Part shown: one piece after another, positions 10,649 through 42,736 of the stretch
Position numbering within the stretch: the stretch's first letter is position 1
Layout: each line of letters begins with the position of its first letter
IMG/VR virus record: IMGVR_UViG_3300025468_000004
Coordinates: 1-42,801 of that record
Source of the DNA: a virus
Strand: one strand, 5' to 3'
DNA length: 42,801 bases
Translations under genes and position numbers: made by a program
Notes under the pieces: model-generated
Database searches by the model: none
Told to the model about the DNA's origin: nothing
The model's input: the letters and a program-made list of their open reading frames with translations, nothing else

Positions 10649-10735
10649 ATGTCTATAACTAGCAGTATCCTGCATGAGGCAGGTAGCAAGGGAGACTCTG
10701 CAAGTAGTACGAAACACGCCGCAGTGAGCACGTAG
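10649..10735 (+). CDS. Possible 28-residue peptide from repeat array B
   Basis: ATG 10649 opens a 28-residue frame whose units keep the same phase to the 21-bp repeat as the 9870 gene (AGSKGDS, ASSTKHA, then AVST and stop). There is no good Shine-Dalgarno. It may be the remnant of a gene like the one at 9870; coding status is doubtful. Confidence 0.25.
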   Translation: MSITSSILHEAGSKGDSASSTKHAAVST

Positions 10736-10804
10736 TGGACAATACGGCGCACGTAGCAGGTGGCACACAGGGCATGGCACGCTGTACGGAGCCCGTAAGA
10801 CGCC
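10658..10804. repeat. Array B: seven degenerate 21-bp repeats
   Basis: Units of 21 bp start at 10658, 10679, 10700, 10721, 10742, 10763 and 10784. The unit at 10700-10720 matches the first unit of array A at 16 of 21 positions; units from 10721 on are more degenerate. This stretch is visibly more GC-rich than its surroundings. Confidence 0.6.
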
Positions 10805-10877
10805 TTTAATCGAATCTTTATGGAAAACTGATGGGTTAGTCAAGGCCTCGCGCGTATAGAGTCTTTACGGGACTGTG

Positions 10878-10886
10878 TGTTATGAT
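10878..10886 (+). promoter_or_regulatory. Extended -10-like promoter element
   Basis: TGTTATGAT (TG at 10878, TATGAT at 10881-10886) fits the extended -10 form of sigma-70 promoters. No good -35 is present. An imperfect inverted repeat (CCCGTAAGAC near 10789-10798 with GTCTTTACGGG at 10861-10871) lies upstream. It would start a transcript into the structured interval and the 11442 gene block. Confidence 0.4.
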
Positions 10887-10992
10887 AGTAACCTGAATGA
10901 TTTAGAGAGTAAGGGTGTTAACTGAGCTTATGTCAGACATTTGACAAGACGTGGTCTCCACTTTAAATAGGTTAAAAGTATCTATCAAATAC

Positions 10993-11110
10993 TTCAAGTA
11001 ACTGAACGAGCCATTACAATCCTCTCGGGTCGTAACTTCCCTGTCCTGTTATTAGATAGTCTAATCGAGTATCCATGGGTCACTTAGTGAAGTTCATCCA
11101 GTTACTTGAA
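10993..11110. other. 12-bp inverted repeat enclosing nested hairpins (possible structured RNA)
   Basis: TTCAAGTAACTG (10993-11004) is perfectly complementary to CAGTTACTTGAA (11099-11110). Inside lie ATTAGA-TAG-TCTAAT (11051-11065) and TCAC-TTA-GTGA (near 11080-11091). A further stem, AGAGCG (11160-11165) with CGCTCT (11174-11179), follows. No reading frame of note runs through it. Confidence 0.5.
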
Positions 11111-11275
11111 ACATCTGATCTTACCGTCTCTTACCTATACTTGCGTTCTTGCAGTGCTTAGAGCGAGTAGTTACGCTCTTGCTTAGTCGGGCCTGCGGAT
11201 CATCTCAAATTGGAGCCCATCCCAATCGTCATAGATTATTCTTGTGTAATTATCGCAACATAATCAACACTCAAA

Positions 11276-11315
11276 AGAAAAAATTATTTTTTCTCTATAA
11301 GGAGCTCTTAGGATT
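11276..11315 (-). promoter_or_regulatory. Leftward T7-like promoter for the phage RNA polymerase
   Basis: Positions 11315-11293 read on the minus strand are identical over 23 bp to the rightward site at 24070-24092. The core CTCCTTATAGAG resembles the T7 class promoter core, with TATA followed by G at 11295 as likely +1. The first transcribed bases form a near-perfect palindrome (AGAAAAAAT at 11276-11284 with ATTTTTTCT at 11286-11294). It points toward the late genes at 8165 and is antisense to the early block. Confidence 0.7.
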
Positions 11316-11441
11316 CTGCCTAGTCGTGTATGCTCTACAGACGATCTTAATAATTTATTAATATGTGCTTAAATACAGTTCATATTAATAAGCAATTAAG
11401 CTTAGCATTGACAATAAAGTCAAACAACCTGGAGTACAAAA

Positions 11442-20682: not shown

Positions 20683-21609
20683 ATGGATGATGATGTTTGT
20701 AGTGCCGTTCGTGGGAAATGGTACGAAGTCCTAAGCACATTAGGCATACCAAAAGAGTTCTTAAACAAAAAGAATGGACCTTGTCCTTTGTGTGGGGGTA
20801 AAGATCGCTATGCTTGGACAAACTATAATGATGATGGAGTATACATCTGTCGTCATTGTGGCAATGGTAATGGCTGGACCTTACTACAAAAATATAACAA
20901 CTGGTCTTTTCCGCAAGCAGCGGAAGCAGTTGAACCTTTAGTTGGAGTTTTGAGACTTAAAGGTAATACCAAAGATACACAACCTCAATACGATCCCAAA
21001 CCTGCTTTAATAAAAGTACATAAAGCAAGTAGTAGGCTCACTTGGGGATCTTCTCAGATGAGCTATCTAAGAAGCAGAGGCTTTAATGAAATGCCTAATG
21101 GGTTACGCCAAGGTGATCTTCAATACTGGCAAAATGGCAGCTGTTTAGGGATCTATCCAACAGTAATTGCTTTGATACAAGACTTTGAGGGCAAAGGAGT
21201 TAGTTATCATCTTACTTATACTAAAGATGGTAAGAAAGCTGATCTAAAGCCTGCACGAAAAGTTATGAAGCCTATTGGAACAATAACCGGAGCAGCTATA
21301 CGATTGCATGCTGAGTTTGATGATCGCATCTGTATAGCAGAAGGCATTGAGAATGCTTACGCTGCCCATAAAGATTGTGGACTTCCTGCTTTCTCCGCTT
21401 TAAACGCTGGTAACCTAGCTAAGTTCGTACCTCCCAGAGGTATTAAGGTTGTATTTATCTATGGAGATAACGATAAGAACTTTGTTGGCCAACTAGCTGC
21501 TTATAAGTTAGCAGAAAGGCTGGTCAATGAAGGTCTAGAGGCTTATGTCTTTATACCTGACAAGATTGGCACGGACTTTGCAGATCAATTACCTGAGGTG
21601 AAAGCATGA
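20683..21609 (+). CDS. DNA primase (zinc ribbon plus TOPRIM)
   Basis: A 308-residue protein. ATG 20683 is placed 7 nt behind GGAGGG; longer TTG/ATG starts upstream overlap that site. The N-terminus has a primase zinc ribbon with C34, C37, C56 and C59 (CPLCGG...CRHCGNGNGW), and the C-terminal half is a TOPRIM domain with E220 (IAEGIE) and D262/D264 (GDNDKN). This is the layout of T7 gp4 and P4-alpha type primases without a helicase domain. It would make primers at the fork; a partner DnaB-like helicase is not encoded in the window. The stop overlaps the RNA polymerase start by 4 nt. Confidence 0.9.
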   Translation: MDDDVCSAVRGKWYEVLSTLGIPKEFLNKKNGPCPLCGGKDRYAWTNYNDDGVYICRHCGNGNGWTLLQKYNNWSFPQAAEAVEPLVGVLRLKGNTKDTQPQYDPKPALIKVHKASSRLTWGSSQMSYLRSRGFNEMPNGLRQGDLQYWQNGSCLGIYPTVIALIQDFEGKGVSYHLTYTKDGKKADLKPARKVMKPIGTITGAAIRLHAEFDDRICIAEGIENAYAAHKDCGLPAFSALNAGNLAKFVPPRGIKVVFIYGDNDKNFVGQLAAYKLAERLVNEGLEAYVFIPDKIGTDFADQLPEVKA

Positions 21610-24035
21610 ATAATGATATACAAGAGTTAGTATGGGACTTGGAAGATAAAATAATGGACAGCAAGAACAACCGGAGTAAAGCTGCGCAAGTATTTAGAAA
21701 TGCACAATGTTTACGCGGAGATTTTAGGAATTACGCTATATTTACAGAAGCGTTGAATTACTTAACATCTTCTTTTAAGAGGCAAGATGGGACTTTAAGG
21801 TTCGCTAATACCAATATGCACTTAGGTAATATAGTTAACAGGCATCTTAATCTTTCTATTTATGCTGATACAAAAATGCACTTAGGGGCTTGCATAACTT
21901 CTACTTTAGTAAAACATGAATATGTCATTTTAAGAAGGGAAGAGTTCTTTACTATTGAAGAAATCAAAATCAACAAGAAACTTACTTCAATAAGGCTACA
22001 GCCTTACCAGTTAGAAATTGGTAAAAAGTTCTTTAATATCAAGTATCTAGGTAAAGAAAGGTTAGGAATCTCTACTACTAAATTCCCAATATGGTTGGAG
22101 CAACATAGAGTAGTAGATGGTGTTAAAGAAGGATTGATTAAAGGTAAAGTAAAAGTAGCTGGTAAAAATCAACCTTTCTTAAAGGCTGTCAATAACCTAG
22201 AACAAGTAAAATGGGAAATCAATCCTAATGTCGCTAAGATTAGTATACAACTAAAAGAGAAGCTAACTGACACATGGATAACTTTAACTGACAAAAATGG
22301 AAAGAATGTTATATTTGATACTAAGGATATTGAAAGAACTTCTATTAATGAGAAATATCACAAAGTCAAATTGTTTAAAGAAGGAACTCCTTTTAATCCC
22401 CATAAAGGTAATTCAACAACTGTTAAGAATTTAGAAAACAAGCTGTCTGAGCTTGAGAGGCGCTCTAGTAAGCTAAAGCCTAGCGGTAAGGTTAAAAAGC
22501 TCGTAGAACAAGAGATTTCGCAGCTTAAACTCCTATATGAGAAACATAATACTAATTGGCTTGCAAAACAAACTTGTTTACGAACACAATCTAAAGCAAA
22601 CCGGGAATTAGCCATCTTAAATACAATACACGGTACTGAAGAATATCTTGGTTGGGAAGGATATCAATTCTACTTAAGTTGCTTTTTAGATTTCAGAAGT
22701 AGAATTTATTCTAAAGATCCTTACTTTAGCTACCAATCATCAGACTTAGCTAGAGGTCATTTACAATTTGCTGAAGCAAAGCCGATGACTTCTACAGGGT
22801 ATGAAAAGCTACTTGTCCACACCGCTAATAGTTATAACCAATCATATACTATTACAGAACTAAAGGAAATTGATTGGACTGAGACGAATTACATAACAGA
22901 CTTAACAGCCGATGGTATCCCAGATATCTCAGTGGACAAAATGAGCTTAGTCGATAGAGCTAATTGGGCTGAAGAGCATTTAACCTTATTCTTAGATATT
23001 GTGGCAGACCCTATGGAAACCTTAGATATTTGGTTTAACGCTGAAAAGCCGTGGGTGTTCTTATCCTTATGCTATGAAATTGTAGCATACGTATCAGAAG
23101 GGGAAGGTTATATGTCTAAAATACCAATAGCTATCGATGGAGCGTCAAATGGGACACAACATTTAGCTGCAATGTCAAAAGATGAAGTAGCTGGCAAAAT
23201 GGTGGGATTAATACCCCGAGAGAAACCGATCGACTTTTATATAGTAGTAGCGAAAGGTATTTTAAATAGAAACATAGATAATGATTTATCTGCTATACTA
23301 GCTAATATCCCTATGAAACTGATAAGAAAAGGTATTAGCAAACGAGGTACTATGACAAAAGCTTATGATGCTGGTGTTAAATGTATCGCAAACATTATTT
23401 ATACGGATTGCTATGATGCAGGTATGACCACGAAATATGGGATTACAAAAGCAATAGCACAACGTTTATCAAAGGATCTTGTTGACACTTACAATTCTCT
23501 TTGCTCTGGCCCTGTAGCTGTGAAAGACTACTTACAAGCCTTAGTAAAGCATAGGTTGATTGAGATGAAGTTTAGAGATGTCAGATGGATGACTCCAAGC
23601 GGATTCCCAGTCATATCAAGTAAGTGGATAACAGATAAACGGCAAATCAGAATAAAGGTCTTAGATGAAACGATCGGACTGGTTTATCGTGAGGCGACAG
23701 ATAGGCCTGCTATCCATGAGATCATATCTGGGATTAGTCCTAACTATGTACACTCAATGGATGCTAGCCACATGTCTTTAGTTATTAACAAACTACATAG
23801 TGAAGGTATCACATCTTTTGGTGCGATACACGATAGTTATTCTGTTCATGCAGATGATGTAGATCGTTTGTTAGAAGTAACTAAAGAAGTATTTGTCGAG
23901 ATGTACGATTTAGACGTCTTTAAAGACATGAAAAGACAATTTATCAGCAATGATAATAGCTTTGATTTTGAAGCTCCAGAAGGTGGAAGTTTAGACCTTT
24001 CTGGACTGAAAAAGTCAGAGTATTTTTTCTGCTAA
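21606..24035 (+). CDS. T7-type single-subunit RNA polymerase
   Basis: An 809-residue DNA-dependent RNA polymerase. The family motifs appear in order: D362-x-R-x-R366 (T7 DxxGR), motif A IDGASNGTQH with D511, motif B K579...M583...Y587 (KRGTMTKAY), and motif C HDSY with D743. In motif B the usual YG is YD. It should transcribe the phage's middle and late genes from its own promoters; the T7-like sequences at 24070 and 11315 are the candidates. It is translationally coupled to primase (ATGA). The gene is followed by 190 nt of regulatory DNA. It is distinct from the second, virion-type polymerase at 30503. Confidence 0.95.
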   Translation: MNNDIQELVWDLEDKIMDSKNNRSKAAQVFRNAQCLRGDFRNYAIFTEALNYLTSSFKRQDGTLRFANTNMHLGNIVNRHLNLSIYADTKMHLGACITSTLVKHEYVILRREEFFTIEEIKINKKLTSIRLQPYQLEIGKKFFNIKYLGKERLGISTTKFPIWLEQHRVVDGVKEGLIKGKVKVAGKNQPFLKAVNNLEQVKWEINPNVAKISIQLKEKLTDTWITLTDKNGKNVIFDTKDIERTSINEKYHKVKLFKEGTPFNPHKGNSTTVKNLENKLSELERRSSKLKPSGKVKKLVEQEISQLKLLYEKHNTNWLAKQTCLRTQSKANRELAILNTIHGTEEYLGWEGYQFYLSCFLDFRSRIYSKDPYFSYQSSDLARGHLQFAEAKPMTSTGYEKLLVHTANSYNQSYTITELKEIDWTETNYITDLTADGIPDISVDKMSLVDRANWAEEHLTLFLDIVADPMETLDIWFNAEKPWVFLSLCYEIVAYVSEGEGYMSKIPIAIDGASNGTQHLAAMSKDEVAGKMVGLIPREKPIDFYIVVAKGILNRNIDNDLSAILANIPMKLIRKGISKRGTMTKAYDAGVKCIANIIYTDCYDAGMTTKYGITKAIAQRLSKDLVDTYNSLCSGPVAVKDYLQALVKHRLIEMKFRDVRWMTPSGFPVISSKWITDKRQIRIKVLDETIGLVYREATDRPAIHEIISGISPNYVHSMDASHMSLVINKLHSEGITSFGAIHDSYSVHADDVDRLLEVTKEVFVEMYDLDVFKDMKRQFISNDNSFDFEAPEGGSLDLSGLKKSEYFFC

Positions 24036-24125: not shown

Positions 24126-24206
24126 CTTGTAGTTGTGGTAGGCTACAAGAAACCAAAACGCTGTACGACTCTCGCCTACCACATAGAGAGTCGTGCAGCT
24201 CTTTTT
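24126..24206 (+). ncRNA. Kissing-loop element ending in a terminator
   Basis: Hairpin 1 pairs CTTGTAG (24126-24132) with CTACAAG (24143-24149), loop TTGTGGTAGG. Hairpin 2 pairs 24160-24173 with 24186-24199 (14 bp, one G-U), loop GCCTACCACATA. The two loops are perfectly complementary: TGTGGTAGG (24134-24142) with CCTACCACA (24175-24183). It lies between the promoter at 24090 and the ssb start at 24228. Probably a cis-acting switch on transcription of the replication block. Confidence 0.7.
24160..24206 (+). terminator. Strong intrinsic terminator upstream of ssb
   Basis: A 14-bp stem (24160-24173 with 24186-24199; outer GCTG/CAGC, inner ACTCTC/GAGAGT) followed by TCTTTTT (24200-24206). It ends transcription coming from the RNA polymerase gene; transcripts from the promoter at 24090 must pass it to reach ssb. 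Confidence 0.85.
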
Positions 24207-24227
24207 AATAAAACAGGAGTAAGAGTA

Positions 24228-24737
24228 ATGATACTTAAAAATATGAAAGTTGCGTGGGCTAAACTACGTGAAGACAACAAAGATGTAAGTGTAGACTTTG
24301 GAGATACTTGGAGTATTCAAGTATATGTTGATAAAGATTTCGCTGAGAAGTGGAACGCTTCAGATATGTCACCTAAAGCAAAGGTAGCAAAGGCTGATGT
24401 TGAATCAGGAAATATGTCAATACAATTTAAGAAAGATTGTGTATGGAAGAAGTCTGGTGACCCTAAGCAGCCACCTGTAGTAGTTGACATGTTCGGTGAG
24501 CCAGTTACGACTAATATCGGTAACGGATCTCTATGTAACATTCAATACAAGAAATGGGATTGGACCTACATGGGTAAGAAAGGAACCTCTACTGAGCTAA
24601 CTGCTGTTCAAGTAGTAGAGCTAGTAGAGTTCGCTGGTGGCGGTGACGATACTGTAGGCTTCGCTTATGACACTAAAGCAGAAGTTCCTCTAGCAGACGT
24701 AACAATGGAAGAAGGTGAGGACGATATTCCATTCTAG
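24228..24737 (+). CDS. Single-stranded DNA-binding protein (T7 gp2.5-like)
   Basis: A 169-residue protein. ATG 24228 behind AGGAG is chosen; an upstream in-frame ATG at 24135 would begin inside the terminator element. The body is a beta-rich OB-fold-like domain resembling gp2.5 proteins (MSIQFKKDCVW..., NGSLCNIQYKKWDW). The C-terminus is acidic and ends EEGEDDIPF. Phage SSBs end in an acidic tail with a terminal Phe, and this tail matches the DDIPF tip of bacterial SSB, which recruits replication and repair partners. Expected to coat ssDNA and organise replication and recombination with the genes that follow. Confidence 0.85.
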   Translation: MILKNMKVAWAKLREDNKDVSVDFGDTWSIQVYVDKDFAEKWNASDMSPKAKVAKADVESGNMSIQFKKDCVWKKSGDPKQPPVVVDMFGEPVTTNIGNGSLCNIQYKKWDWTYMGKKGTSTELTAVQVVELVEFAGGGDDTVGFAYDTKAEVPLADVTMEEGEDDIPF

Positions 24738-30174: not shown

Positions 30175-30456
30175 ATGGAACACAGAGATTATAATGTAAT
30201 GAGCGAGCATGGTATTACTGACCAAGAGTATGCTGATAAATTTGGGCTACCTCAAGAATTAGTAGGCTCACCAGAAATGAACGATTGGATGATGCGTAAA
30301 GTTTATGAGGATAATATGAGAGACTGCTCAGACAAGTTGATTGAAGAAGGCTATTCAAGAGAGAAAGCAGAAAATGAATGTCACAAAACAGCTGTAAAAA
30401 ATAAGAACGAAGCGGCGAAGTTACTTAAGTCGGTCCAAAAAAGAAGAGGCTATTAA
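30175..30456 (+). CDS. Last rightward gene, small helical protein
   Basis: A 93-residue charged protein, predicted helical, with segments GITDQEYADKFGLPQELVGS and EEGYSREKAENECHKTAVK. It starts one nucleotide after the previous stop and ends six nucleotides before the convergent terminator. No family recognised. Confidence 0.68.
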   Translation: MEHRDYNVMSEHGITDQEYADKFGLPQELVGSPEMNDWMMRKVYEDNMRDCSDKLIEEGYSREKAENECHKTAVKNKNEAAKLLKSVQKRRGY

Positions 30457-30461: not shown

Positions 30462-30505
30462 AAATACCCCCTACAGACTAATAATCTGTAGGGGGTATTT
30501 TTTTA
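30462..30505. terminator. Bidirectional intrinsic terminator between convergent operons
   Basis: A perfect 16-bp stem (30462-30477 with 30485-30500; core TACCCCCTACAGA/TCTGTAGGGGGTA) with a 7-nt loop. A T-run follows on the plus strand (30498-30504) and an A-run precedes it (30455-30460 region), so it works both ways. It overlaps the stop codon of the leftward polymerase gene. Confidence 0.95.
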
Positions 30506-33500
30506 TCTATTAGTTACTTTTAATCGTTCATCAATATCAGCTAAATAAGGGTTGGCTTGTGTATCTATAAATTGATCGAAGAAGTTTTGTTCAAAATTAA
30601 CTTTCTCCTGATCTCCTCGTAGCCTCCCTTCTTCAAAGCTAGACTCTTTTAAACTATACAAATGTTTCTTAGCAGCTTTAGCTTTGGCTATTTGGTTCTT
30701 AACAAACACCCGATCTGCATCGTCCGCTCCATCCCAAAAGAATTGCTTAATAAATCTATCTCCAAACTCAAAATGACGTAAAAGTCTTTTATGAGCGATA
30801 GTAGCGTCTTCGATATCCTTAAGCATCTTCCGAAAGCCTGAAATACGATGTTTATCAAACTGAGCACCGTCGCGACCTTCGATAAGAGATTCTAGATCAC
30901 TTTTAAATTGATCTAGATAAAAGAACTCATTGTGAAGCCTGAAGAACTCTTTATTAAGAGCGTCTGCATAAGGCTTAGCATCTTTAGGAGTCATAAAGAT
31001 TCCATCAAACACTTGAGCTGCAGAACCTACATTACCTTTACTACGCGCATTCATAATGCCTTGAAGCATATTGGTAGCATCAAGATGGTGAGTAATTAAT
31101 ACAGCTGCTTGAGTAGCTGCTTTTAATATTGCTCCTTCTACTTCTGCTCTTTCTTCTGTGGTACCTCTATGATAAGCTTCATAGAATTCAGGATCTATTT
31201 GATATTCTTTACCTGAAGGTCTACGTAAAACCCTAGCATCCGTCATCCATGATGAGTCAATAACATGTAAAGGAGCATCAAATAAGTCTTGCTTTCTTTT
31301 AAACTTAGCGACAGAAGCCTTAGCTATATCATAAGCAGCTTGAGCTTCCCCTATTTTGATAGGAGAAGCTTTAAAAGCTTTTGCATCAGTTAATGCTGTT
31401 AAGGCGTTACGCTCACGTCTTTCAGCTTCTCTAACATCTTTAGCCGAAAAAGTGATACTACGAGCTTTAGTGTATTGCATACCAAACACAATAACATTAC
31501 CATTCGGCATTTGCAAAGAAGGAGTGATCCCTTGTTCAACAGCTGCGGTAGCTAACTTAGAAAGAAGCTTTGTTATTTTAGTAATAGAATCAAACTTAGT
31601 AGCTACTGCTTTATTAACGTTTGTCCCGATCTGATCAATCAACCATTCCATTGGGGAAACATTAGATTTAAGCTGCAAAGCTCCAGTATCAACATAAGCA
31701 TCTAAAGCTTCAGTAACAGTTGAGCGTACACCTTCTTGGTCTAAAAGTTCTTCCATGCCTTCGCGAACAGACTTCTTAATTGTTACTTCTCCGGCTCCAT
31801 AAGCAAAAATCATAACAGGCTTCTTCATAAAGTCGCGACGCTTATCATTAAGATTAAGCTTTTTAAACAAATCAATAAGAATAGGGTCTCCATTCTGTTC
31901 AATCATTTGCTTTAAAGCTTCTCCTGATAAATGATAAATGTCTTCACCTTCTCTTCCTTTTTTATGCTCAAATAGTTCACTATTCAAAGCAATTAAAGGA
32001 TTAAGGTTAGTAGCTGCAGCTGCTTCAAAAGAACCCGCCTGCATAGCGTTATGAGCAGTTCCATTCGCTACACCATCAACTTCAGTAAAGAACCTAGACT
32101 TAACTTTTCCTTCAATTTTACTAGAAGAAGTGTCTCTCTGCCCTGTGTTATCTCTAGCTCCATATTTACGAAGTAATCTAGCCCCTTCTCGCATAGCAGA
32201 CAAAGATAAGAACTTCTCTTGGCCGTTGGCTATTTCAAGAATTTTATCAGCATTAGCTTTCCAATTTTGCTCTATAGTAATAGAATCAGAGTACACCAAA
32301 GATTCCCATAATAAACCATGGTCAGGTTCATCGAAAGCTTTAGCAGCTTCGTCGACACCCATCTTAGAATACTTGCCTCCAAACTTCTTCATAATGCCTG
32401 CCTTAAGTAGTTTAACCTCAACAGGAGAGTTATAAGTAGCGTTATCAGCTGAGCTTAAAGCTCCGCGGGAGAGTTTGCTTGATTGGAAGTTGCCTATATA
32501 TTGTTTCATATAAGCTCGTCCATTTAAGCCGAAGAACCAATCAGTATAAAACTTACTTCCAAATACAACTTGGTTTCCTTTAGCGTCAATCTTCCAATTG
32601 CCGTTAGTATCTTTAGGGACAATCATTGACATCAAGCGTTGTACTCCCATGTCTTTTAGGTTATCCCCGTGGTATACTTCTTGGACATTAGGCCTGCTAA
32701 CTGAAGGGTCTGTTGAGTTAGGATCATAAAGATGTTTCTTAGTTTCCCAGAACTCTTTTTGTTCTATTGAAGAAAGGGGTGATCCTTTATTTTGTTTATT
32801 CAATAAAGCATTGTGTTTTGCTTGCTCTCCCTTTCTTTTAGGAATAATAGATCCATTATCATCTAAAGCATCAATAAATTTGTTACGCCCATTTTGGAAG
32901 GTTCCTTTATATTCGTTACCTTGCTCATCAGTGTAACCCTTAATGTTCAGCAATCCATTAAATCCTTCAGAAGGAAGGAGCTCATCAATGTTCATTAAAA
33001 GATCATAATCCCATCTAAACGCCATATTGCTTAATTCAAATAAAGCATCTCGCTGCCATTGAGGATCATGTCCTAACTTGTCATAAACATGCTGGAATAC
33101 ATCCTCTGGAGCGGAGCCTTTTAATCTCTCAACATTTTTATAACGTTGCTTAGAATCCCAATCCTTCTTGTTAATTGGAGAAGAACGATAATGGTCTTTA
33201 TCATCTTTGATATTAAGTAAAGCATTAGCAAGAGGAGCTAACTCATATCCAAAGACTCTACCTGTAGGGGTTAAAGACCCATTAGAAAAGCTCCCTTCTC
33301 CTGTAGAATCAACATGCAAAGCACCAGAAACAACGTTTAAAGCAATTGCACCCAAAGCTGCAGCTATATCGTCTTTAGTTTTAGGAATACCTAAAAGCTT
33401 CTGAACTTTTTCGCCAATAATTATATTACGTCTAGCTTTGTTTACTTTTGCTTGTTCTGAGTCTCTATACAATTGTGCTTGAGCTAATCCGTGTTGCTCA

Positions 33501-35509
33501 TCTAAAGATACTTCAGAGCTGTAAGATTCAACTCCTTCTGAAAAAACTGCTAACAACATTGCATCTGCAACAGATCTTTCCATATCGACCGTGGTCTGAG
33601 AAGCATTGTATTGCTGGGCTAGTGCAAACAAAGTGCCTGCAATATTAACATCAACATCTGAAGAGGCTACAACACTAGCTATAATCTCTTTAACTCCTTC
33701 AGCATCTGCAACATTAGCCATCATTGCCATTAAGTAAGAATCTACTTTTGTTGAAGAAGCATCAAAGTTAAATAAGGTTGACGCTTTGTTTGAAGTAGAA
33801 ATTAAAGGTTTCTTAGCAATACCTAAAGAACCATTTGCTTGCTTGTCGGCATACAAAAGGTCTTTAACGGTTAACATTGGGTTAGCATTTGGGTATAAAC
33901 TTATTAAATCTTTAGCTACGGTTTGCAATAATTGCTCACGGCTAGGATCTAAAGTGGCTTTCGTATTCTTACTGTTAACATGGCTTTCATAGAGCTTGTG
34001 TAAAATACCAAGCAAAGCCCGAGCGTCATAGTCTGCTCTATGGTTGTTTGCGGCATCAGCTGAAAGCCCTGTAATGTCTACTTCTACTTGCAAGTCTTTA
34101 ATAAGAGAAGATTGCTTTACTGTTTTTCTATTAGAAGAGTACTTATAAAAGGATTCTCTAGCTAATACAACAGAATCTAATTCTGTATTAATAGAGGCTA
34201 AATCATAAGCAACACCTTCTTTATTAAAATTATGTTGTAGCATTCTTGTATCAAAGTCAACATTATGAGCTACATAAGAAGTAGCTCCAGATATGAAAGT
34301 ATTAAAAGCTTTAAAACCTTCTGTTGGGGAAACCCCTTCTCTATGTAACAAGTGTTTATCGATATGATGGACATCTTCGCCTTTAACAGTTCCGTCGCTA
34401 TTGAAAGCCTCTTTTGTTTTAATGAAAACAGAGAAGTATTCTGGCTCGCTACCTTTAGTATACTTAACTGCTCCAATCTGTACAATTGAAGCTTTATCAT
34501 CTAGCCCTGTGGTTTCAGTATCTAAAATGATTACTGTTCCATTTTCCCATTCATTAGCGAAATCGTCTAAATCACTAGCAACATATTCAACAGAGCCTTC
34601 TAAAATTTCAGGAATTAAACGTATTTCAGTAGGTGTAAGTTTGCCTAAATTGTCGCTTAACCTTTTAAGATTAGTGATCGGCTCAGACCCTTTAAACATC
34701 TCTGGGACTTTACCATGCAGAGCTTCTTGAGCCTTAGAATACTCTAATATTTTAGACAAAGCTTTATTGTCAGTAGCCCAATTAATAAAACCTTGCTTAA
34801 GATTAGGATTAGTTCCTACATCAACAATAGCTTTTTGAAAACGCTCAGCGTCGGTAGGGTCTATTCTTAATCCTTTTTCAACATAAATTTCAACTGGATT
34901 TCTACCTTGCTCCACAGCTTTAACAACTTCTTTATTCTCTTCTTCGGCAGAAGGGGTTGTATCTAGTTGAGTATTTTCTTGCTCATACTGTGCTTTATCT
35001 TCTTTAAGAGAGTTTATAAATTCCTCTAAACGAGAAGTTTGTGCATACATTTCATTGATTGGAGCCCCTATATCTTGGAGCCTTTTTATTTCTTCTTGTA
35101 TAGGAGATGTATATCTTTCATACTTCTGATCAATTGCATCTAAAGCAGAAGCATTAGAATCAACTGCTCTAAGATGAGAAGCTGACGCTGTTATACGTTG
35201 CTCTCCTTCATGAGGATAAATGATAGCGTTATCGTATTCATCCTTTCCTCCATATCTTCCAATAGTCTCTTCCCTAGAAACAGGATTTGTGTATACTACT
35301 TCTTGAGAATCATAAAAAGGCTCAGGTTCTACAGTAAGAGGACTTCCCCCAAAAGCTTGGGTAGGAGGCTGGGTAGAGGTATCCAAAGTATCATGAATAA
35401 CAAAATTAGGGTCTGCTGCTTGTACTCTCTGTAACAGCTCATCTAACTTTCTTGTAGGAACAAGAGAAGAAGCTTTATTAGAACCCCCGGGTTGTGAAGT
35501 AAATATCAT
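30503..35509 (-). CDS. Virion RNA polymerase fused to a DEDDh 3'-5' exonuclease
   Basis: A 1668-residue protein in the internal-virion block. Residues about 320-510 are a DnaQ-like exonuclease with all DEDDh residues: D330/E332 (ILDTETTGL), D418 (HNVDFDTRML) and H490/D495 (HRADYD). Residues about 950-1560 carry single-subunit RNAP motifs: GLNGR with R998, motif A DGVANGTAH with D1145, motif B R1225/K1229/Y1237 (KKPVMIFAYG), and motif C FDGIF with D1502 (Phe replaces the usual His). Spacing resembles N4 virion RNAP (as I recall R424, D559, Y678, D951). In N4 this enzyme is ejected with the DNA and transcribes early genes. It is much shorter than N4's roughly 3500 residues. The long N-terminus (1-320) is low-complexity and helical and may be the ejection or virion-anchoring part. 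Confidence 0.85.
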   Translation of the reverse strand: MIFTSQPGGSNKASSLVPTRKLDELLQRVQAADPNFVIHDTLDTSTQPPTQAFGGSPLTVEPEPFYDSQEVVYTNPVSREETIGRYGGKDEYDNAIIYPHEGEQRITASASHLRAVDSNASALDAIDQKYERYTSPIQEEIKRLQDIGAPINEMYAQTSRLEEFINSLKEDKAQYEQENTQLDTTPSAEEENKEVVKAVEQGRNPVEIYVEKGLRIDPTDAERFQKAIVDVGTNPNLKQGFINWATDNKALSKILEYSKAQEALHGKVPEMFKGSEPITNLKRLSDNLGKLTPTEIRLIPEILEGSVEYVASDLDDFANEWENGTVIILDTETTGLDDKASIVQIGAVKYTKGSEPEYFSVFIKTKEAFNSDGTVKGEDVHHIDKHLLHREGVSPTEGFKAFNTFISGATSYVAHNVDFDTRMLQHNFNKEGVAYDLASINTELDSVVLARESFYKYSSNRKTVKQSSLIKDLQVEVDITGLSADAANNHRADYDARALLGILHKLYESHVNSKNTKATLDPSREQLLQTVAKDLISLYPNANPMLTVKDLLYADKQANGSLGIAKKPLISTSNKASTLFNFDASSTKVDSYLMAMMANVADAEGVKEIIASVVASSDVDVNIAGTLFALAQQYNASQTTVDMERSVADAMLLAVFSEGVESYSSEVSLDEQHGLAQAQLYRDSEQAKVNKARRNIIIGEKVQKLLGIPKTKDDIAAALGAIALNVVSGALHVDSTGEGSFSNGSLTPTGRVFGYELAPLANALLNIKDDKDHYRSSPINKKDWDSKQRYKNVERLKGSAPEDVFQHVYDKLGHDPQWQRDALFELSNMAFRWDYDLLMNIDELLPSEGFNGLLNIKGYTDEQGNEYKGTFQNGRNKFIDALDDNGSIIPKRKGEQAKHNALLNKQNKGSPLSSIEQKEFWETKKHLYDPNSTDPSVSRPNVQEVYHGDNLKDMGVQRLMSMIVPKDTNGNWKIDAKGNQVVFGSKFYTDWFFGLNGRAYMKQYIGNFQSSKLSRGALSSADNATYNSPVEVKLLKAGIMKKFGGKYSKMGVDEAAKAFDEPDHGLLWESLVYSDSITIEQNWKANADKILEIANGQEKFLSLSAMREGARLLRKYGARDNTGQRDTSSSKIEGKVKSRFFTEVDGVANGTAHNAMQAGSFEAAAATNLNPLIALNSELFEHKKGREGEDIYHLSGEALKQMIEQNGDPILIDLFKKLNLNDKRRDFMKKPVMIFAYGAGEVTIKKSVREGMEELLDQEGVRSTVTEALDAYVDTGALQLKSNVSPMEWLIDQIGTNVNKAVATKFDSITKITKLLSKLATAAVEQGITPSLQMPNGNVIVFGMQYTKARSITFSAKDVREAERRERNALTALTDAKAFKASPIKIGEAQAAYDIAKASVAKFKRKQDLFDAPLHVIDSSWMTDARVLRRPSGKEYQIDPEFYEAYHRGTTEERAEVEGAILKAATQAAVLITHHLDATNMLQGIMNARSKGNVGSAAQVFDGIFMTPKDAKPYADALNKEFFRLHNEFFYLDQFKSDLESLIEGRDGAQFDKHRISGFRKMLKDIEDATIAHKRLLRHFEFGDRFIKQFFWDGADDADRVFVKNQIAKAKAAKKHLYSLKESSFEEGRLRGDQEKVNFEQNFFDQFIDTQANPYLADIDERLKVTNR

Positions 35510-35521: not shown

Positions 35522-38500
35522 TTAATAAGGTGGTTTACCTGTGTATTCACGTGTACCACCAAAGAGGGGTACCATTCTTTTCCATCTATATGCTGCTTTA
35601 TCATCTTCTCCTTCTATTGTAGCAGAGAGAGCTTCATACAGGTCTGTAGCTGTCGAAGCGGTAGGACCTGCAATTGCTTTTCCTCTAGATTTTACATCTT
35701 GTTTAAACTTACTAAACGTATAATCACCTTTATCGGAAGATGAAGAATAAACCGGGGCTAACAACTCAAGAGGCCTATGTAGTGAACCTAGTAACCCTGA
35801 CTGTATACCAGCACGATAGTTCTTCTTACCTTGTGAAAGATAAGGATTTTCTTCTCCGAACTTCCATAGGTCTTTTAACTCTTGACCTAAATAAGCAACA
35901 AGCAACATATACATCATCATTTGGAATGTCGCATATTGTACATCTGGATTAGCTCCTTTAACGTCTTTCCAAATCTTAGGCAAGGCTTGTGATTGAAAAG
36001 CCATAATATAACTAGTATATTGTGTCAATAACCTATACCTTGGATTTAAAGCCCATAAAGGTTTAGTTGTAGTGTCAGGCCTAACTGTTCCCATCTCGAC
36101 GTATGATTGTCGAGCTAAAGATAGCTGGTTTTGCAACTCAGGATAATTATTTTTAATATGAATAAACAAAGCTTCATCTATTTCGCTTCTAGCTTTTTCA
36201 TCTAAAGCTCCTTTATCTCTATAAGCTTTATAGATCAAAGCTATGTTAGGATCTGCAGCTATAGCTTTCCAGTCTTTAGCTAATTGTACAGGGTCAACCC
36301 TTAAGTCCCGCAACCGATCATAAGCATCATTCACAAAAGAGGTATTAGAGCCTTTCTCATTCCAATATAAAGAAACAATTTCAATATCTTGAATGATAGC
36401 ATCATTAGCTAAAGCCCAGCGTGTAATACGTGAAAAGTCAGTCACATGCTTTAGCAAGGTTACGCTAAAGAAAGCTTTCATTATTCCCGCTTTAATCTTA
36501 CTTGCAGGCTCAACATCTAACTTAGCCATTACACCTCCTTCATGTGAAGCTTGACCTGATTCATAAAAAGCGCCAACATTACGTTGGTGTTCTTGTAGAG
36601 TCATACCAGAGCCCTTAATGAAGTATTTAGAGGTCTCTTTTATGTTGTTTTTAAATAAAGGAACTATACCATCTCTAACTGCTTTACGGATTAAGTCAGA
36701 AGTATTACCTGTCCCTGCTGTCCTAAAGAAAGCAGTCACAAATTCAACTAAGCTTGGTAAAGCAGCAGACTCAAGTTGATTAAGTCCATTGATCATAGTG
36801 ATATTTTCTTGCGCATTAGCAATAGCATCACTTTCAATAGGTTTGTAATTGCCATCCATAGCATCTAGCAGCCCAACAATATGGTGTAACACGCGCGGAT
36901 CATATACCCCTTCGGCTGTAGCCTGCCTCTTATAAGCATGTAAAAGCTTAGATAAAGTTATATCATTTTGCCCTTTATACTCAATATCAGTTGCATATTT
37001 TGTAATACGACTAATCTTCTGAGCTGACTGAGCTTCAAAATCAGTGTGAAGAAACTCATTCATTTCAGGATCTTTAACAAGTAATGCGACATCTTTTACA
37101 GCTTCTTTATCAACACGTCTCATCTCAAAAGGTGTAAATTTATTGTCCCCAAGCCCTAACCTTTTGCGAGTAGGGTCAAAGTTATTAACCACTGCAAAAG
37201 AAGCTTCATAAGCTTGCTCAGCCTTTAATTTAGAACCTAGTATTGAGGTTGCTATAGAAATAAACCTAGCTTTGTTTTTGGCTACAGCATCAATATTAAG
37301 CTCAGTAGCTTCCCAGAACCAATCTTTGCTCATATCAAAGGTTACCTCTTGGCTCTTTGTATTAAATTCCCCTCTTTTTAGTTTAGAATTTATCTTAGCT
37401 TCAAATTTCGAGATAAATATATTAATAGATGCTGACACTTTCTTTGCTTCAGTAATGTTTATATCTGGGAACATTACTTGTAATTTTGAATCTGATGTTC
37501 CTTTATTATAGGCATTATGAAAGGTTTCCATATCTTTCATTACTGAAGAGAAGTTACCTTTTGATAAGACTATTGAGTGACGAGTTTTAAAAACGGACAT
37601 AATATTGTTATAAATACCTCTTGATTGAGTAGTATACTCATTAGAGACTCTCAATCTCTCTAAAGCTAAATGTGCTCCGGAAGCATAACTAATCCCGGTA
37701 TTTACAAGCCCTAAAATAGCTTTTTCGATACTTTGTAATGCTGAACTGTGTCCTTTGAAGTTGTTCATCAAACGATGCTGGACAAAATCTGCTGCAGAAT
37801 CAATTGTTCTACGAGGCAACTCTTTAAAGAAAGTTGCCCAACCTTTGTTTTTACGAAGATCATTATCTTTAGTAGCTTCAAGCTCTTTATTTAACGATTC
37901 ACGTAAAGGCCCATGACTCACTTTACCACTTTCTTGTTGAATCAGAGAGGTAACAGTGTGCATACGAGTGCCTTTACCTTCTTTAGCTCTAGCAAGATCT
38001 ATTTCATACTGTTGAATAAGAGGATCAAAGTCTGCTTTATCCGCTTTAGGTGCTTTGTCTTGTTGCTTCTTTACAGCTTCAAGACTGGTTTCTATTTGTT
38101 GAACTTCCTCATTATAAACTTCAACACCTTCTGAAGCACTACGCTCTACGCCAGTTGTTTGTCTTACAACATTCTTAAAGTCTCTATAACCTCCAGCGGC
38201 ACCTGAAACAGTTCCAAATCCACCTCCTAATGTAGCTCCTCCAATACCTGCATTAATTACAATATCTTCAAATTGTGTAGGGTCCCATTCTTTATTAGAA
38301 CCAAATACTGAAGTAGCGTATCCAAGACCTTCTTGAGCAACTTCAGTTATACCCTCAGATAAAGCTCCTTTACCTGTATTTAATAAGGTATTTTGAGCTA
38401 ACTTACCTAAACCTTCCTTACCTAAAGCAACAGCAGATAAAGTAGCTAAACTATCATAAGTAGCAAAAGCATTTTTTTGTAAAATTGATTCAATATAATT

Positions 38501-39661
38501 TAAAGCATCTTCTAAACGAGTTCCTGGATTTTGCTTAATGTATTCAAGGGCTACCTTATGTTTGCCATACTTAGTCATAAGGTGGCTAGGTTTAAATAAC
38601 AAAGAAACGCCTAGCACGTCTAATGAAGCCATTGCTACCCCTGCTAATAAAGCAGCAGAAGCGCTCTTCTCGTCTTTTTCTCCTTCCATATTAGAATAGA
38701 CTTCACCTGAATATATCAAAGAAGGAGCAGTAGTACCTAAAGCGTATTTAGCTGCTTGCGTAGAGGCTAGCACGGCACCTGTACCGTACGAAGCAATAAT
38801 ACCTAGCATGTAAGGTAAAGCAGTACCAGCTTGCCCAGCAACATAATCTACCGCGTCTGAGGCTGAGTGGACTTCTTTATAATTACGAACATACTCAGGC
38901 ATGTCGGCAGACTTCAAATTAATATCGTGAATTCCTCGCATACCTGCGTTGTACAATTCTTCGTTGTCTAACGTATCACCTACTAAAGCTTTAGCTCCAT
39001 AGTAAGATTGTTGTATACCAAGAAGTCCTTGACGAATTCCACTTTTTAAAGGAGAATAAGCTTGGTTTTTTAAGTCTCTATCATAATGCCTAAATTCAAC
39101 ATCACGATATAAACCTGGAGTACTTTTATACTCTGCTTCATCTAAAGCGGTTAACTTAGGAACAAACAAGTCGTAGTTGTCTTTAACATCATTAACAAAC
39201 GAACGCTGCTTAGACCAGTAAGAATCTTTATCTTCAGTATGTCTACGTACACGATTACCTTTGATATAAGAGTCAAGTCCTTCTTCTGAAGTATACGCAT
39301 TAGGAGTAACAATATTCTCGGAGAGTAAACGAGCGGATAACTCTTCTCCTGTCTCGTTGTGTTTAACATTTCCTAAGGTTCTGCCGTAAGCGCCAAAGCC
39401 TTCCGAAGTCTGCGTATCAAATCCTTGCTCACGCATCGCATCAGCAACAACTTCTGTTTGAGCATAACCTGTAACAGTTCCGGGAGCTTTAGTAGGTTGA
39501 TCCGCATCGTGGTATACTTCTTCTGTATCGAATCCTTTAGCACGGAAGGTTTCTCCAGTCGCTAGGTTTTTCCATGTATCTCCATCTTCCAAGTAATGTT
39601 CTTCACCATTTAACATGGTAGTCCCGTACTGGTCAATATACCATTGCTTGTCTTCAGGCAT
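35522..39661 (-). CDS. Large internal virion (ejection) protein with N-terminal SNase-like domain
   Basis: A 1379-residue protein. Residues about 20-120 match the staphylococcal nuclease pattern: D26-G-D28-T, R40-x-x-x-x-D45-T-E-E48, a helix with GYAQTEVVADAM, then YGR94TLGNV and a final helix. D28, R40, D45, E48 and R94 line up with the active-site D21, R35, D40, E43 and R87. Two hydrophobic/glycine-zipper stretches (about 275-360 and 465-500) could insert in membrane, as expected for proteins that form a conduit for phage DNA. Charged coiled coils follow, and the C-terminus resembles other podoviral internal proteins. Gene order corresponds to T7 genes 15-16. Confidence 0.8.
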   Translation of the reverse strand: MPEDKQWYIDQYGTTMLNGEEHYLEDGDTWKNLATGETFRAKGFDTEEVYHDADQPTKAPGTVTGYAQTEVVADAMREQGFDTQTSEGFGAYGRTLGNVKHNETGEELSARLLSENIVTPNAYTSEEGLDSYIKGNRVRRHTEDKDSYWSKQRSFVNDVKDNYDLFVPKLTALDEAEYKSTPGLYRDVEFRHYDRDLKNQAYSPLKSGIRQGLLGIQQSYYGAKALVGDTLDNEELYNAGMRGIHDINLKSADMPEYVRNYKEVHSASDAVDYVAGQAGTALPYMLGIIASYGTGAVLASTQAAKYALGTTAPSLIYSGEVYSNMEGEKDEKSASAALLAGVAMASLDVLGVSLLFKPSHLMTKYGKHKVALEYIKQNPGTRLEDALNYIESILQKNAFATYDSLATLSAVALGKEGLGKLAQNTLLNTGKGALSEGITEVAQEGLGYATSVFGSNKEWDPTQFEDIVINAGIGGATLGGGFGTVSGAAGGYRDFKNVVRQTTGVERSASEGVEVYNEEVQQIETSLEAVKKQQDKAPKADKADFDPLIQQYEIDLARAKEGKGTRMHTVTSLIQQESGKVSHGPLRESLNKELEATKDNDLRKNKGWATFFKELPRRTIDSAADFVQHRLMNNFKGHSSALQSIEKAILGLVNTGISYASGAHLALERLRVSNEYTTQSRGIYNNIMSVFKTRHSIVLSKGNFSSVMKDMETFHNAYNKGTSDSKLQVMFPDINITEAKKVSASINIFISKFEAKINSKLKRGEFNTKSQEVTFDMSKDWFWEATELNIDAVAKNKARFISIATSILGSKLKAEQAYEASFAVVNNFDPTRKRLGLGDNKFTPFEMRRVDKEAVKDVALLVKDPEMNEFLHTDFEAQSAQKISRITKYATDIEYKGQNDITLSKLLHAYKRQATAEGVYDPRVLHHIVGLLDAMDGNYKPIESDAIANAQENITMINGLNQLESAALPSLVEFVTAFFRTAGTGNTSDLIRKAVRDGIVPLFKNNIKETSKYFIKGSGMTLQEHQRNVGAFYESGQASHEGGVMAKLDVEPASKIKAGIMKAFFSVTLLKHVTDFSRITRWALANDAIIQDIEIVSLYWNEKGSNTSFVNDAYDRLRDLRVDPVQLAKDWKAIAADPNIALIYKAYRDKGALDEKARSEIDEALFIHIKNNYPELQNQLSLARQSYVEMGTVRPDTTTKPLWALNPRYRLLTQYTSYIMAFQSQALPKIWKDVKGANPDVQYATFQMMMYMLLVAYLGQELKDLWKFGEENPYLSQGKKNYRAGIQSGLLGSLHRPLELLAPVYSSSSDKGDYTFSKFKQDVKSRGKAIAGPTASTATDLYEALSATIEGEDDKAAYRWKRMVPLFGGTREYTGKPPY

Positions 39662-39673: not shown

Positions 39674-41938
39674 TTATTTGTTAACTTGCTCTAACATCCA
39701 TCCAGGGAAGCGGCCAGCCCAAACGGTATTTGGGTTAGCGTTCTGCATTTTCTTAAAAGCTTCGTATAGTTGTGTTTGTTTAGACATAGCTTCTTTTCTA
39801 TTTTTTGATGATTTAAAGATTACTACAGAGGCTTGAGCCATATCTCTACGGTTTTCATCAGCAAAGTCAAAGTCTTTTGATTGATTCCAATATTTATTAC
39901 TATTAACCACACTGCGCTGAGCATCTACAACAGCCATATCTCCTAAGAAGTTACCTAGAATTGAAGTCTTAGGATCTTTTTGATAACGATCCACAGCTGC
40001 ATCTAATTGAGCCCGATCGTAGTAATCCATTTCTATGCCTAAACGACTTACTTCTGCTAAGGCGTTATCAAGGTGTTTAGCAAACCCTTTATTTTTAGGG
40101 ACTCCGTAATCATCAAGTTTATTTCTCTTCATTAAATCTGTGCGTACAGCTTTAAAAGTTGCGTCTTTAGCTTTCACAGCTTCTAAAGCTGTTTTGTTAG
40201 TAGCTTTAGCTCTTTCATTAGAAGCTTTCAATGAATATTCAGCGTTCTGCTTCTCCATCTCTCTTTGATGCTTTTCGTCAGCTAAGAGTCTATTGCCTTC
40301 AATACCTAGCGCTGCATTGGTGTCTCTATTAAGTAAAGCAGAAATAGCTAACTTAACAAGAGTCCTTGCTGCTTTAGCCCCATAATTGCCCTGAAGTAAT
40401 CTTTGGTTTTCTAAAGCGTCTTGAGCTGCAGCATTGCTTTTAATAATGCTCGCAGCAGCTTCAGAGCCTCCAGGATTGCCTTCTAGGTCATTTAAAGCGC
40501 TTTGATAGGCACTAGTATTACTTTTGTCTTTCTTGGCTTCTTTGACTATCTTAGTCTCTTCTGTTTTAGAAAAAACACTATCTATTTTATCAGCATCATC
40601 TAAAACTCGATAAGCTGCTGTACCTCCTACAGTGGCTTGTACCCAAGGATTTTGCACTCCTTTTTGGAAAAGACCTTTAGCTTTGTTAAACCACTTCTTA
40701 AAGAACTCTTTCCCTCCTTTGCCTTTGACCGGAGAGAACTTTGCGAAAATAGCTGCAGCTGCTGCTTCTTTCTTATGGTCCCAAACCCATTCTGCAGCAT
40801 CTCCTGCTTCATCTAGTAAGAAAGCAGACACTCCAGCTTCTTTCTGTTCTTCTGAAAGGCTTCCCCAGGCAGCGTTCAGTTTATCAGCGCTCCACTTTCC
40901 TCCTTCATATACACCATAAGTTGTGAAGGCTCGGGAAGCATTTGACCATGCTTTAGAAGTTTTCTGAGCTTCTGTTAAGGTTCTGGAGGCTTGTTGTACA
41001 GCTTTAGCAGTTTGATTAACAGCCTTTGTGCCGTAAGCAATTCCAGTCTCTGTTTTAGCGACTTTATTAGCGGTCTCTGCTGCTTTAGAGGCATTATTTG
41101 CCCGCATAAGGGTTTCTTCAGCCTTTTTTAATTCATCTGCATTTTTAAGTTGAGAAGCTTTAGTTCCTTTATCATACCAAGTCTTAATATCGTCAAAAGT
41201 CTTGCTAATATTTTTTGAGGCTTCAGTAGCGGTCTTCTTAACTATAGGAAGGGCTTTGCTAGTTAAGACCGGGACTTTAGTAACAATAGCAGGACCCATC
41301 CAAGGAGGAAGAGTCTCAAGGTCTTCCCAAGCTTCTCCGGCATAATGCCCTGCACCTTCCCCAGCGGCTTCAAAAATACTTCTATCATCTAATCTTTGTT
41401 GTTCAACAAGGTCCTTTTGAACTTGGTATTCTTGGGCGACTTGAGCATCTGAACCATCTCCAACTCCTCCTATAGAGGGGACGTCATATTCAGGATATAA
41501 ATCCGTAGGGAAAGGCTGTGCAACATCAGGCCCTTTGTATCCAGGAATCATACTCTTTTCGTTAGGATTGTATTTAGGGCCATCAAAACGAGAAGTAAAG
41601 ACGCTGTCGTCTCCTGCTTCAAGCATAAAGCTTCGTCTTAAGTCTTCTTCTCCCTCGTTTGAAGCCTCTGCAGAGTTTGAAGTATCTCCATTTGAAGAAG
41701 GAGTCCCACTATTTTTATTGCTAATAGTACGCTTCTCTACTGTACCATCTTCATGCTTAATAGTGTTCTCTTCTGAAACAACAGAGCTATTTTTATCAGC
41801 TACACTTGATCCAAATACAGACTCAGGAGAGTTATCCACTAGGGGATTTCGATATCCCCAGCCATTCTGCATCATAAGCTCTACTTCATTTTCATTTATT
41901 GCTTGAGAGTTACCTGCTTGATCATATAAAGTTACCAT
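39674..41938 (-). CDS. Internal virion protein, Ala-rich helical
   Basis: A 754-residue protein. The N-terminus (MVTLYDQAGNSQAINENEVE) is a short domain seen at the start of several phage internal proteins. A Ser/Glu/Asn-rich disordered part (about 45-110) precedes long Ala/Lys/Glu-rich helices (about 225-340 and 520-640). No enzymatic motif is visible. Its place between two other internal protein genes suggests an ejected core or conduit component, comparable in role to T7 gp14-gp16. Confidence 0.75.
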   Translation of the reverse strand: MVTLYDQAGNSQAINENEVELMMQNGWGYRNPLVDNSPESVFGSSVADKNSSVVSEENTIKHEDGTVEKRTISNKNSGTPSSNGDTSNSAEASNEGEEDLRRSFMLEAGDDSVFTSRFDGPKYNPNEKSMIPGYKGPDVAQPFPTDLYPEYDVPSIGGVGDGSDAQVAQEYQVQKDLVEQQRLDDRSIFEAAGEGAGHYAGEAWEDLETLPPWMGPAIVTKVPVLTSKALPIVKKTATEASKNISKTFDDIKTWYDKGTKASQLKNADELKKAEETLMRANNASKAAETANKVAKTETGIAYGTKAVNQTAKAVQQASRTLTEAQKTSKAWSNASRAFTTYGVYEGGKWSADKLNAAWGSLSEEQKEAGVSAFLLDEAGDAAEWVWDHKKEAAAAAIFAKFSPVKGKGGKEFFKKWFNKAKGLFQKGVQNPWVQATVGGTAAYRVLDDADKIDSVFSKTEETKIVKEAKKDKSNTSAYQSALNDLEGNPGGSEAAASIIKSNAAAQDALENQRLLQGNYGAKAARTLVKLAISALLNRDTNAALGIEGNRLLADEKHQREMEKQNAEYSLKASNERAKATNKTALEAVKAKDATFKAVRTDLMKRNKLDDYGVPKNKGFAKHLDNALAEVSRLGIEMDYYDRAQLDAAVDRYQKDPKTSILGNFLGDMAVVDAQRSVVNSNKYWNQSKDFDFADENRRDMAQASVVIFKSSKNRKEAMSKQTQLYEAFKKMQNANPNTVWAGRFPGWMLEQVNK

Positions 41939-41947: not shown

Positions 41948-42736
41948 TTATTTTGTCGTATACCCTATACTGTTCGGGCCAATAGACCAGCCTGTGAAGA
42001 AGCTGTCATCTTTCCCTTTCTTAATTTCATCTAATTCCTTTTGAGCTAAAGCTAAAGTCTTAGGATTCATATTGCCTTTTTCAATCCTCGACTTTAAATA
42101 AGCTTCGTACTTAGAATCTTTTATTGCATCTTTATAAATAGACTTAGAATAACCTTCAGCCTCACCATCAAACCATTCCCCTCCTTTAGGAAGATTATTT
42201 CGAGCCCAAGTAGGTTTAAATTCGCCGATCATGCCAGTTGGTTTATAAACTTTTCTATTATTCCATGCGGAATATGCTTGACCTAAATCTTGTTTTTCTT
42301 GAGTCAAAGCTGCTTGAGCATTAACATAAGAAGTCCATTCAGGGGCTGTAGAAGGATCTTTCTGTATCATAGTTATTGCTGTTGAGCGATCAGCCACTCC
42401 TTTAGTCTTCATATAATTATTAATCAAAGATTCTTGATCTGTATTGAGAGAAGCATGACGAGATGCTAAGTCTTGATCTTTTTGGCCAAATGAAAATTCG
42501 CCGCGTAAACGGTACGGATTATCCTTTTCAGTTGGAGCTTGATTCTCCCTGCCTAAAAAAGCGTCTGTTCCAGAGCCTGCTATCGCAGCAAGAGCTGCAG
42601 CTTTTCCTTTCTCCCACCAGCTTTCTTTAATGGTAACCGGTGAAGGTCCTTTTATAGTTTCTCCATCAGCAAAGCCTCTCCATCCTAATTCAGATGAAGC
42701 TATCCCATAGGGGTTTACTTGTTTGTTATATGCCAT
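41948..42736 (-). CDS. Internal virion protein, small
   Basis: A 262-residue protein. An N-terminal segment with an Ala-rich helix (KGKAAALAAIAGSGTDAFLG, about residues 47-66) may be membrane-active; the remainder is helical and charged, with DPSTAPEWTSYVNAQAALTQE as a likely helical hairpin. The start overlaps the upstream stop by one nucleotide (TAATG). Position and size fit the smallest of the ejected proteins, like T7 gp14. Assignment is by context. Confidence 0.65.
   Translation of the reverse strand: MAYNKQVNPYGIASSELGWRGFADGETIKGPSPVTIKESWWEKGKAAALAAIAGSGTDAFLGRENQAPTEKDNPYRLRGEFSFGQKDQDLASRHASLNTDQESLINNYMKTKGVADRSTAITMIQKDPSTAPEWTSYVNAQAALTQEKQDLGQAYSAWNNRKVYKPTGMIGEFKPTWARNNLPKGGEWFDGEAEGYSKSIYKDAIKDSKYEAYLKSRIEKGNMNPKTLALAQKELDEIKKGKDDSFFTGWSIGPNSIGYTTK

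Follow-up and report, generated by a model that had tools for sequence, protein, structure and literature searches.

Two catalytic domains in one reading frame

The window analyzed here is the entire IMG/VR record IMGVR_UViG_3300025468_000004, comprising 42,801 bases from an uncultured phage. Its minus strand carries, at positions 30503–35509, a gene for a fusion protein of 1668 residues, hereafter V1668, in which an N-terminal region is followed by a DEDDh exonuclease and an N4-type single-subunit RNA polymerase (RNAP). The open reading frame starts with ATG and runs without interruption, and the protein, which contains no cysteine, is matched by Pfam, PHROG, and NCBIfam models. The pairing of an N4-type RNAP with an intact DnaQ-type exonuclease in one protein was found in no other phage. 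N4-like phages begin infection with virion RNAPs (vRNAPs), and the forms of the N4 type described so far are giant proteins of about 3500 residues.

Domain scans found no known domain in residues 1–326 of V1668 (34532–35509; this and the following segments on the minus strand), part of which is predicted to be coiled. A weak IcmG/DotF-type match lies at residues 114–204, and in the alignment with the compact vRNAP relatives described below, a counterpart of residues 1–326 is absent or unrecognizable. Residues 327–502 (34004–34531) form the predicted DnaQ-type DEDDh 3'–5' exonuclease domain, residues ~620–950 (32660–33652) align with an RNAP N-terminal region common to the compact relatives, and residues 951–1560 (30830–32659) constitute the single-subunit RNAP core, which was assigned from PF00940, a motif alignment, a phylogenetic tree, and a structure match.

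The PF00940 match covers residues 1134–1325 (2.1e-10). When residues 950–1600 were used as the sole query, the best single-sequence matches were Schitoviridae vRNAPs. The domain was also compared, in one alignment, with six Schitoviridae vRNAPs and with the RNAPs of T7, SP6, and further phages. In this alignment R998, D1145, K1229, Y1237, and D1502, listed in a preliminary description of the window as the complete set of single-subunit RNAP motifs, coincided with the catalytic residues of T7 RNAP, SP6 RNAP, and N4 vRNAP. The N4-like motif spacing proposed at the same time holds for the R-to-A distance (147 residues, compared with 135 in N4 and 112 in T7) and the B-to-C distance (265, compared with 273 and 173), but the A-to-B distance of 84 is closer to that of T7 (94) than to that of N4 (111). 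N4-type signatures were found in motif A (EVDGVANG), after motif B (YGAG), in motif C (FDG), and near R998 (NxQSSKL). The ExDGxxxG motif, which was used to define N4 vRNAP in a survey of N4-like phages (PMC10654107), corresponds to EVDGVANG at residues 1143–1150 and includes D1145; it is shared by V1668, the six Schitoviridae vRNAPs, and all members of the compact clade, and no T7-type RNAP checked has it. The tree separated N4-type from T7-like RNAPs with support of 100/100 and placed V1668 on the N4 side. The best matches, the motif alignment, the tree, and ExDGxxxG agree in assigning the polymerase to the N4 type and not to the T7 type, and a T7-like origin is ruled out by the tree split and the best matches.

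An AlphaFold model of residues 530–1668, built from V1668 aligned with 14 relatives (15 sequences), had a mean pLDDT of 55, with values of 70–86 in the core. Structure searches with this model returned single-subunit RNAPs throughout the list, with a Z score of 20.7 to T7 RNAP and of 16.1 over 570 residues to N4 mini-vRNAP. Whether residues 950–1560 might lie outside the single-subunit RNAP fold was checked in this way, and the model matched only single-subunit RNAPs. The sequence comparisons and the predicted structure support the assignment of the V1668 polymerase to the N4 lineage and to the single-subunit RNAP fold.

The exonuclease segment was matched by Pfam RNase_T (PF00929) at residues 327–502 with an E value of 8.3e-13 (49.6 bits against a cut-off of 24) and by phrog_192, 'DNA polymerase exonuclease subunit', at residues 306–516 (2.6e-29). 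NCBIfam DnaQ-type models matched with E values down to 1.8e-12 and scores under their curated cut-offs, and a weaker match was obtained with an exoribonuclease profile (PF16473, 3e-7). The nearest PDB matches were DnaQ (8h18, 1.7e-9), PolC-type, and Cas2-DEDDh enzymes. The ExoI DxE motif lies in ILDTETTGL (D330 and E332), the ExoII aspartate in AHNVDFD (D420), and the ExoIII HxxxxD motif in NHRADYDA (H490 and D495), and all five catalytic residues are kept. A complete DEDDh exonuclease had been claimed in the preliminary description, and D330, E332, H490, and D495 were correctly named there; the ExoII residue given, D418, was ruled out, being the aspartate of 'NVD' two residues away from D420 in 'NVDFD'. 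The DEDDh motifs are common to V1668 and DnaQ/PolC-type exonucleases, including stand-alone phage forms such as Vibrio phage VP882 gp46, with approximately 26% identity over the domain. Whereas these enzymes are stand-alone early genes or replication subunits, the exonuclease of V1668 lies within a longer chain presumed to belong to the virion.

Compact relatives and comparison with known systems

A profile of V1668 and the Schitoviridae vRNAPs found 28 viral contigs. The loci numbered L141–L157, with the exception of L156, which is long and truncated, make up a clade of compact vRNAPs from uncultured phage contigs (support of 95/93), in which V1668 is sister to the vRNAP of L145 (96/92). The complete compact vRNAPs other than V1668 are 1141–1414 residues long; those of L146, L149, and L151 end at contig edges, and the frame of L157 is interrupted. 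The contigs of the clade range from less than 10 kb to 42.7 kb, and the longer ones are about 34–43 kb. In the relatives whose flank is covered, a homologue (~1350 residues) of I1379, the protein encoded directly upstream of V1668, is followed by the vRNAP, which faces a small gene corresponding to the 93-residue gene of the window and is convergent with the early genes. With neighbors on both sides and replication genes in common with the window, these compact vRNAPs are the nearest relatives of V1668, from which they differ in being shorter and lacking the exonuclease. An earlier IMG/VR survey dropped candidates of less than 2500 residues (PMC10654107), and the compact clade would therefore have been excluded.

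The sister phage, L145/G051 (IMGVR_UViG_3300001683_000023), displays identities to the window of 83% in the terminase, 58% in the T7-like RNAP, 57% in the helicase, 58% in the RecE-like exonuclease, and 47% in RusA, compared with 31% in I1379 and approximately 26% over the RNAP core of the vRNAP. Pfam RNase_T was found in only one of the 12 aligned clade proteins, V1668 itself; no exonuclease domain was detected in the 11 compact relatives, including that of the sister phage, or in the six longer N4-type vRNAPs scanned. Likewise, none of the vRNAPs described to date was found to carry an exonuclease, in agreement with the statement in the preliminary description that none was known. Given this distribution, and judging from the sequences compared, the exonuclease is specific to its lineage, where it was either added to the N-terminal portion of a compact vRNAP or took the place of sequence there. 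Single-sequence scans with the whole protein, its sub-domains, and the neighboring proteins found no close relatives of V1668, and a scan of bacterial genomes gave no match. No recognizable compact vRNAP is encoded by the isolated phages in the collection, and the relatives reached via the portal and the T7-like RNAP were CRP-7-like phages in which different genes occupy the vRNAP slot.

V1668 and phage N4 gp50 (mini-vRNAP, 2PO4/3C2P) have in common the polymerase lineage, the fold, ExDGxxxG, the FDG form of motif C, the absence of cysteine, and the gene position. They differ in length (1668 against approximately 3500 residues; Schitoviridae gp50 proteins are 2842–3820 residues long, PMC10654107), in the DEDDh exonuclease of V1668, and in its setting, a 42.8-kb genome whose second RNAP is T7-like and consists of a single chain. 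An HExxH metallopeptidase motif was found neither in V1668 nor in the compact clade. The Pfam vRNAP domains PF21894, PF21769, PF21867, and PF21624 were not listed in V1668 at an E value of 0.1; N4 and Axy04 match these domains strongly, and Littlefix and Vibrio 1.026.O match only under the cut-off. The earlier view of V1668 as a virion-type RNAP like that of N4 gene 50 is thus borne out by lineage, fold, gene order, and lack of cysteine, but the protein is not gp50 proper, being half as long, lacking HExxH, and belonging to a separate compact clade.

Polyvalent proteins provide another parallel. N4-like RNAPs of this type are fused to lysozyme, PBECR1 RNase, and ADP-ribosyltransferase domains and are thought to enter with the DNA (PMC5512222). 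Like V1668, they combine an N4-type RNAP with a further enzymatic domain and are presumed to be ejected (Iyer et al. 2017, PMC5512222), but those described always carry a metallopeptidase, unlike V1668 with no HExxH, and no exonuclease fusion is described among them (PMC5512222). The nearest isolate, as judged from the portal (43%), the capsid (45%), and the T7-like RNAP, is Roseobacter phage CRP-7, the layout of which is similar. In CRP-7 the slot of the vRNAP gene is taken by gp33 (1235 residues; L004 17859–21566), which is functionally unassigned and lies beside an I1379 homologue; gp33 gave no detectable RNAP or exonuclease match, although deep divergence is possible.

Virion location, promoters, and role of the exonuclease

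The late genes of the window are on the minus strand, running from 42736 to 30503 and from 8165 to the beginning of the contig. The early genes are on the plus strand, at about 8.3–30.5 kb. The V1668 gene is the last gene of the late internal-protein block and is convergent with the early genes; N4 annotation agrees with the earlier remark that this is the place of gene 50. Upstream of it on the minus strand are the genes of I1379 (35522–39661), a 1379-residue internal/ejection protein with a match to a virion structural family (phrog_6958, 3.9e-18), and of proteins of 754 residues (39674–41938), with a partial homologue at the sister locus L145, and 262 residues (41948–42736), both assigned to the internal-virion block. 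Each of these proteins lacks cysteine, and together with V1668 they comprise 4063 residues without one. At the rate of phage early genes, 23 cysteines would be expected in V1668 alone (probability of none, ~8e-11), and at the rate of head genes 7.7 (~5e-4). All six Schitoviridae vRNAPs and the compact vRNAPs examined (L141–L157) are also free of cysteine, whereas T7-type and other cytoplasmic RNAPs have 7–17; lack of cysteine was earlier used as a vRNAP hallmark (PMC10747016). Because the four-gene block is cysteine-free like every N4-type vRNAP examined, which is strong though indirect evidence, we infer that V1668 is packaged in the virion and ejected with the DNA.

Early promoters of N4 are three hairpins with a conserved downstream sequence (PMC4496689). 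On the plus strand of the window, a candidate hairpin, TATTAGA-CTT-TCTAATA (8697–8713), with a 7-bp stem and a 3-nt loop, occupies the gap ahead of an early gene and is a possible vRNAP promoter, and a second, ATTAGA-TAG-TCTAAT (11051–11065), with a 6-bp stem and a 3-nt loop, lies in non-coding early DNA. The two are weakly similar to each other, and such similarity occurred in one of 60 shuffles. In the sister phage, three near-identical hairpins, GAAGACAC-GMT-GTGTCTTC, each with an 8-bp stem and a 3-nt loop and followed by TAGGTAG, are located in gaps upstream of early genes (L176 10194–10210, 10854–10870, and 12519–12535, minus strand) and were matched in none of 60 shuffles. Another relative, G059, carries tandem hairpins upstream of its first early gene (L189 12300–12460, minus strand), several of them with a TAC loop followed by TAGAGA (GTAGAGA in at least two), and two copies show one compensatory stem change. 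These repeats support the presence of putative hairpin promoters in the compact clade. A generic test for k-mers common after hairpins did not separate N4 from the controls.

We regard V1668 as probably the ejected N4-type RNAP of a compact clade that gained a DnaQ-type 3'–5' exonuclease domain. Both predicted active sites are shown to be intact in one open reading frame, in the position of N4 gene 50 and inside a cysteine-free block of four genes. V1668 would be packaged, pass through the tail with the DNA, and transcribe the early genes, including that of a separate T7-like RNAP (21606–24035, plus strand), which would then serve later genes. Less certainly, the exonuclease would enter on the same chain and degrade the 3' ends of nucleic acids within the first minutes. 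Several points weigh against this account. A second contig with the fusion was not found, although near-identical records may have escaped, and the fusion is represented by one contig. A model of the exonuclease built without an alignment had a pLDDT of 38 (single sequence) and was too poor for recognizing the RNase H-like fold expected of a DEDDh enzyme, and the window itself has no established hairpin promoter, only the two weakly similar candidates. The putative substrate of the exonuclease, moreover, is spread over several proposals.

Among these proposals host or defence nucleic acid comes first, if tentatively, by analogy with the effector domains of the polyvalent N4-type RNAPs. Action on the phage's own DNA is possible, though given less weight: the exonuclease may trim or resect the entering 3' ends for repair, recombination with the RecE-like exonuclease, or circularization. 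In favor of this, DNA 3' ends are the usual target of DnaQ-type exonucleases, the closest PDB entries belong to DnaQ, PolC-type, and Cas2-DEDDh enzymes, and the phage encodes RecE-like and RusA-like genes; the sister phage, however, has both of the latter and yet lacks the domain. Nor would such resection help early transcription from that end. The preliminary description had suggested that the exonuclease might open a single-stranded promoter, which is geometrically unlikely for inward transcription; opening of inward promoters in this way was rejected, since the strand whose 3' end lies at the terminus serves as their template and would be eroded by 3'–5' resection. Trimming of the entering end and attack on host DNA, the other two roles suggested there, are among the proposals weighed above. 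A somewhat smaller chance is that the exonuclease is inert or does something not considered here. Editing or trimming of the nascent RNA is unlikely, and no less so the corresponding picture of V1668 as a virion-packaged proofreading single-subunit RNAP, in which the exonuclease would act in cis on the polymerase's own RNA. The two domains do share a chain, the exonuclease lies N-terminal to a polymerase of the family A DNA polymerase superfamily, as in family A DNA polymerases, and an exoribonuclease profile matches weakly. Proofreading is nevertheless less likely because ~130 residues and the whole RNAP N-terminal region intervene between the exonuclease and the palm and because the best scores come from DNA-type DnaQ families; the domain is, in addition, present in no relative.

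The remaining explanations concern the protein itself. The DEDDh fold might be kept as a structural or binding module rather than as a nuclease, as its activity is predicted from sequence alone and the structure model is poor; we consider this improbable, given that all five catalytic residues have been kept although the rest of the protein diverges fast. It is very unlikely that V1668 is an unpackaged late or middle cytoplasmic RNAP with an accessory nuclease. The indirect case for packaging, a genome of 42.8 kb, which phages with N4-type vRNAPs do not usually have, and the presence of a second phage RNAP would fit such a role, but the lack of cysteine matches N4-type vRNAPs and not T7-type or other cytoplasmic RNAPs, and the gene closes the internal-protein block in the clade as it does in the window, with a recognized virion structural family just upstream. 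Least credible of all is a chimera in which misassembly joined a phage vRNAP gene to an unrelated DnaQ gene: the single metagenomic contig would allow it, but the frame is open over 5 kb, GC content, GC3, and codon usage show no break across the exonuclease segment, the exonuclease half is also free of cysteine, and the flanking gene order is that of the relatives. If V1668 is, as we prefer, an ejected polymerase with an added exonuclease, a polymerase of half the N4 size with a nuclease would lend itself to expression, and it would let the role of a co-injected nuclease in the first minutes be examined, whether on host or defence nucleic acid, on phage DNA ends, or in RNA editing.

Other genes and elements of the genome

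I1379 has a single strong hydrophobic segment near residue 338. The separate T7-like RNAP is a non-virion protein of 809 residues with nine cysteines (PF00940, 1.8e-68; phrog_414, 1.7e-110) and was placed in the tree with CRP-7 gp30. The early-strand gene convergent with the V1668 gene (30175–30456, plus strand; 93 residues) is kept beside the vRNAP gene across the clade with 32–43% identity; this gene and a 200-residue gene at 24135–24737 are conserved in most relatives whose flank covers them. The early genes at 8321–30456 include a primase, an SF2 helicase, the RecE-like exonuclease, RusA, and a thymidylate synthase. None of them is long enough for a DNA polymerase, and no long candidate is present in the covered part of the sister genome.

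Two stretches of the early region, 9640–10110 and 10520–11440, are long and structured with little coding sequence, and include a GCAA-loop hairpin near 9915–9930 and a terminator-like hairpin at 10534; they gave no Rfam match. Sigma-70-like sites in the early region were not above chance. At the divergent early/late junction (8221–8336), four CTGTGTGT repeats with spacings of 33, 31, and 28 are followed by ATATATATAT. These repeats may mark an iteron/AT-rich origin or an array of promoters, and the sister phage has a similar series with an AT run and a TATTCG..ACCCCCC element.

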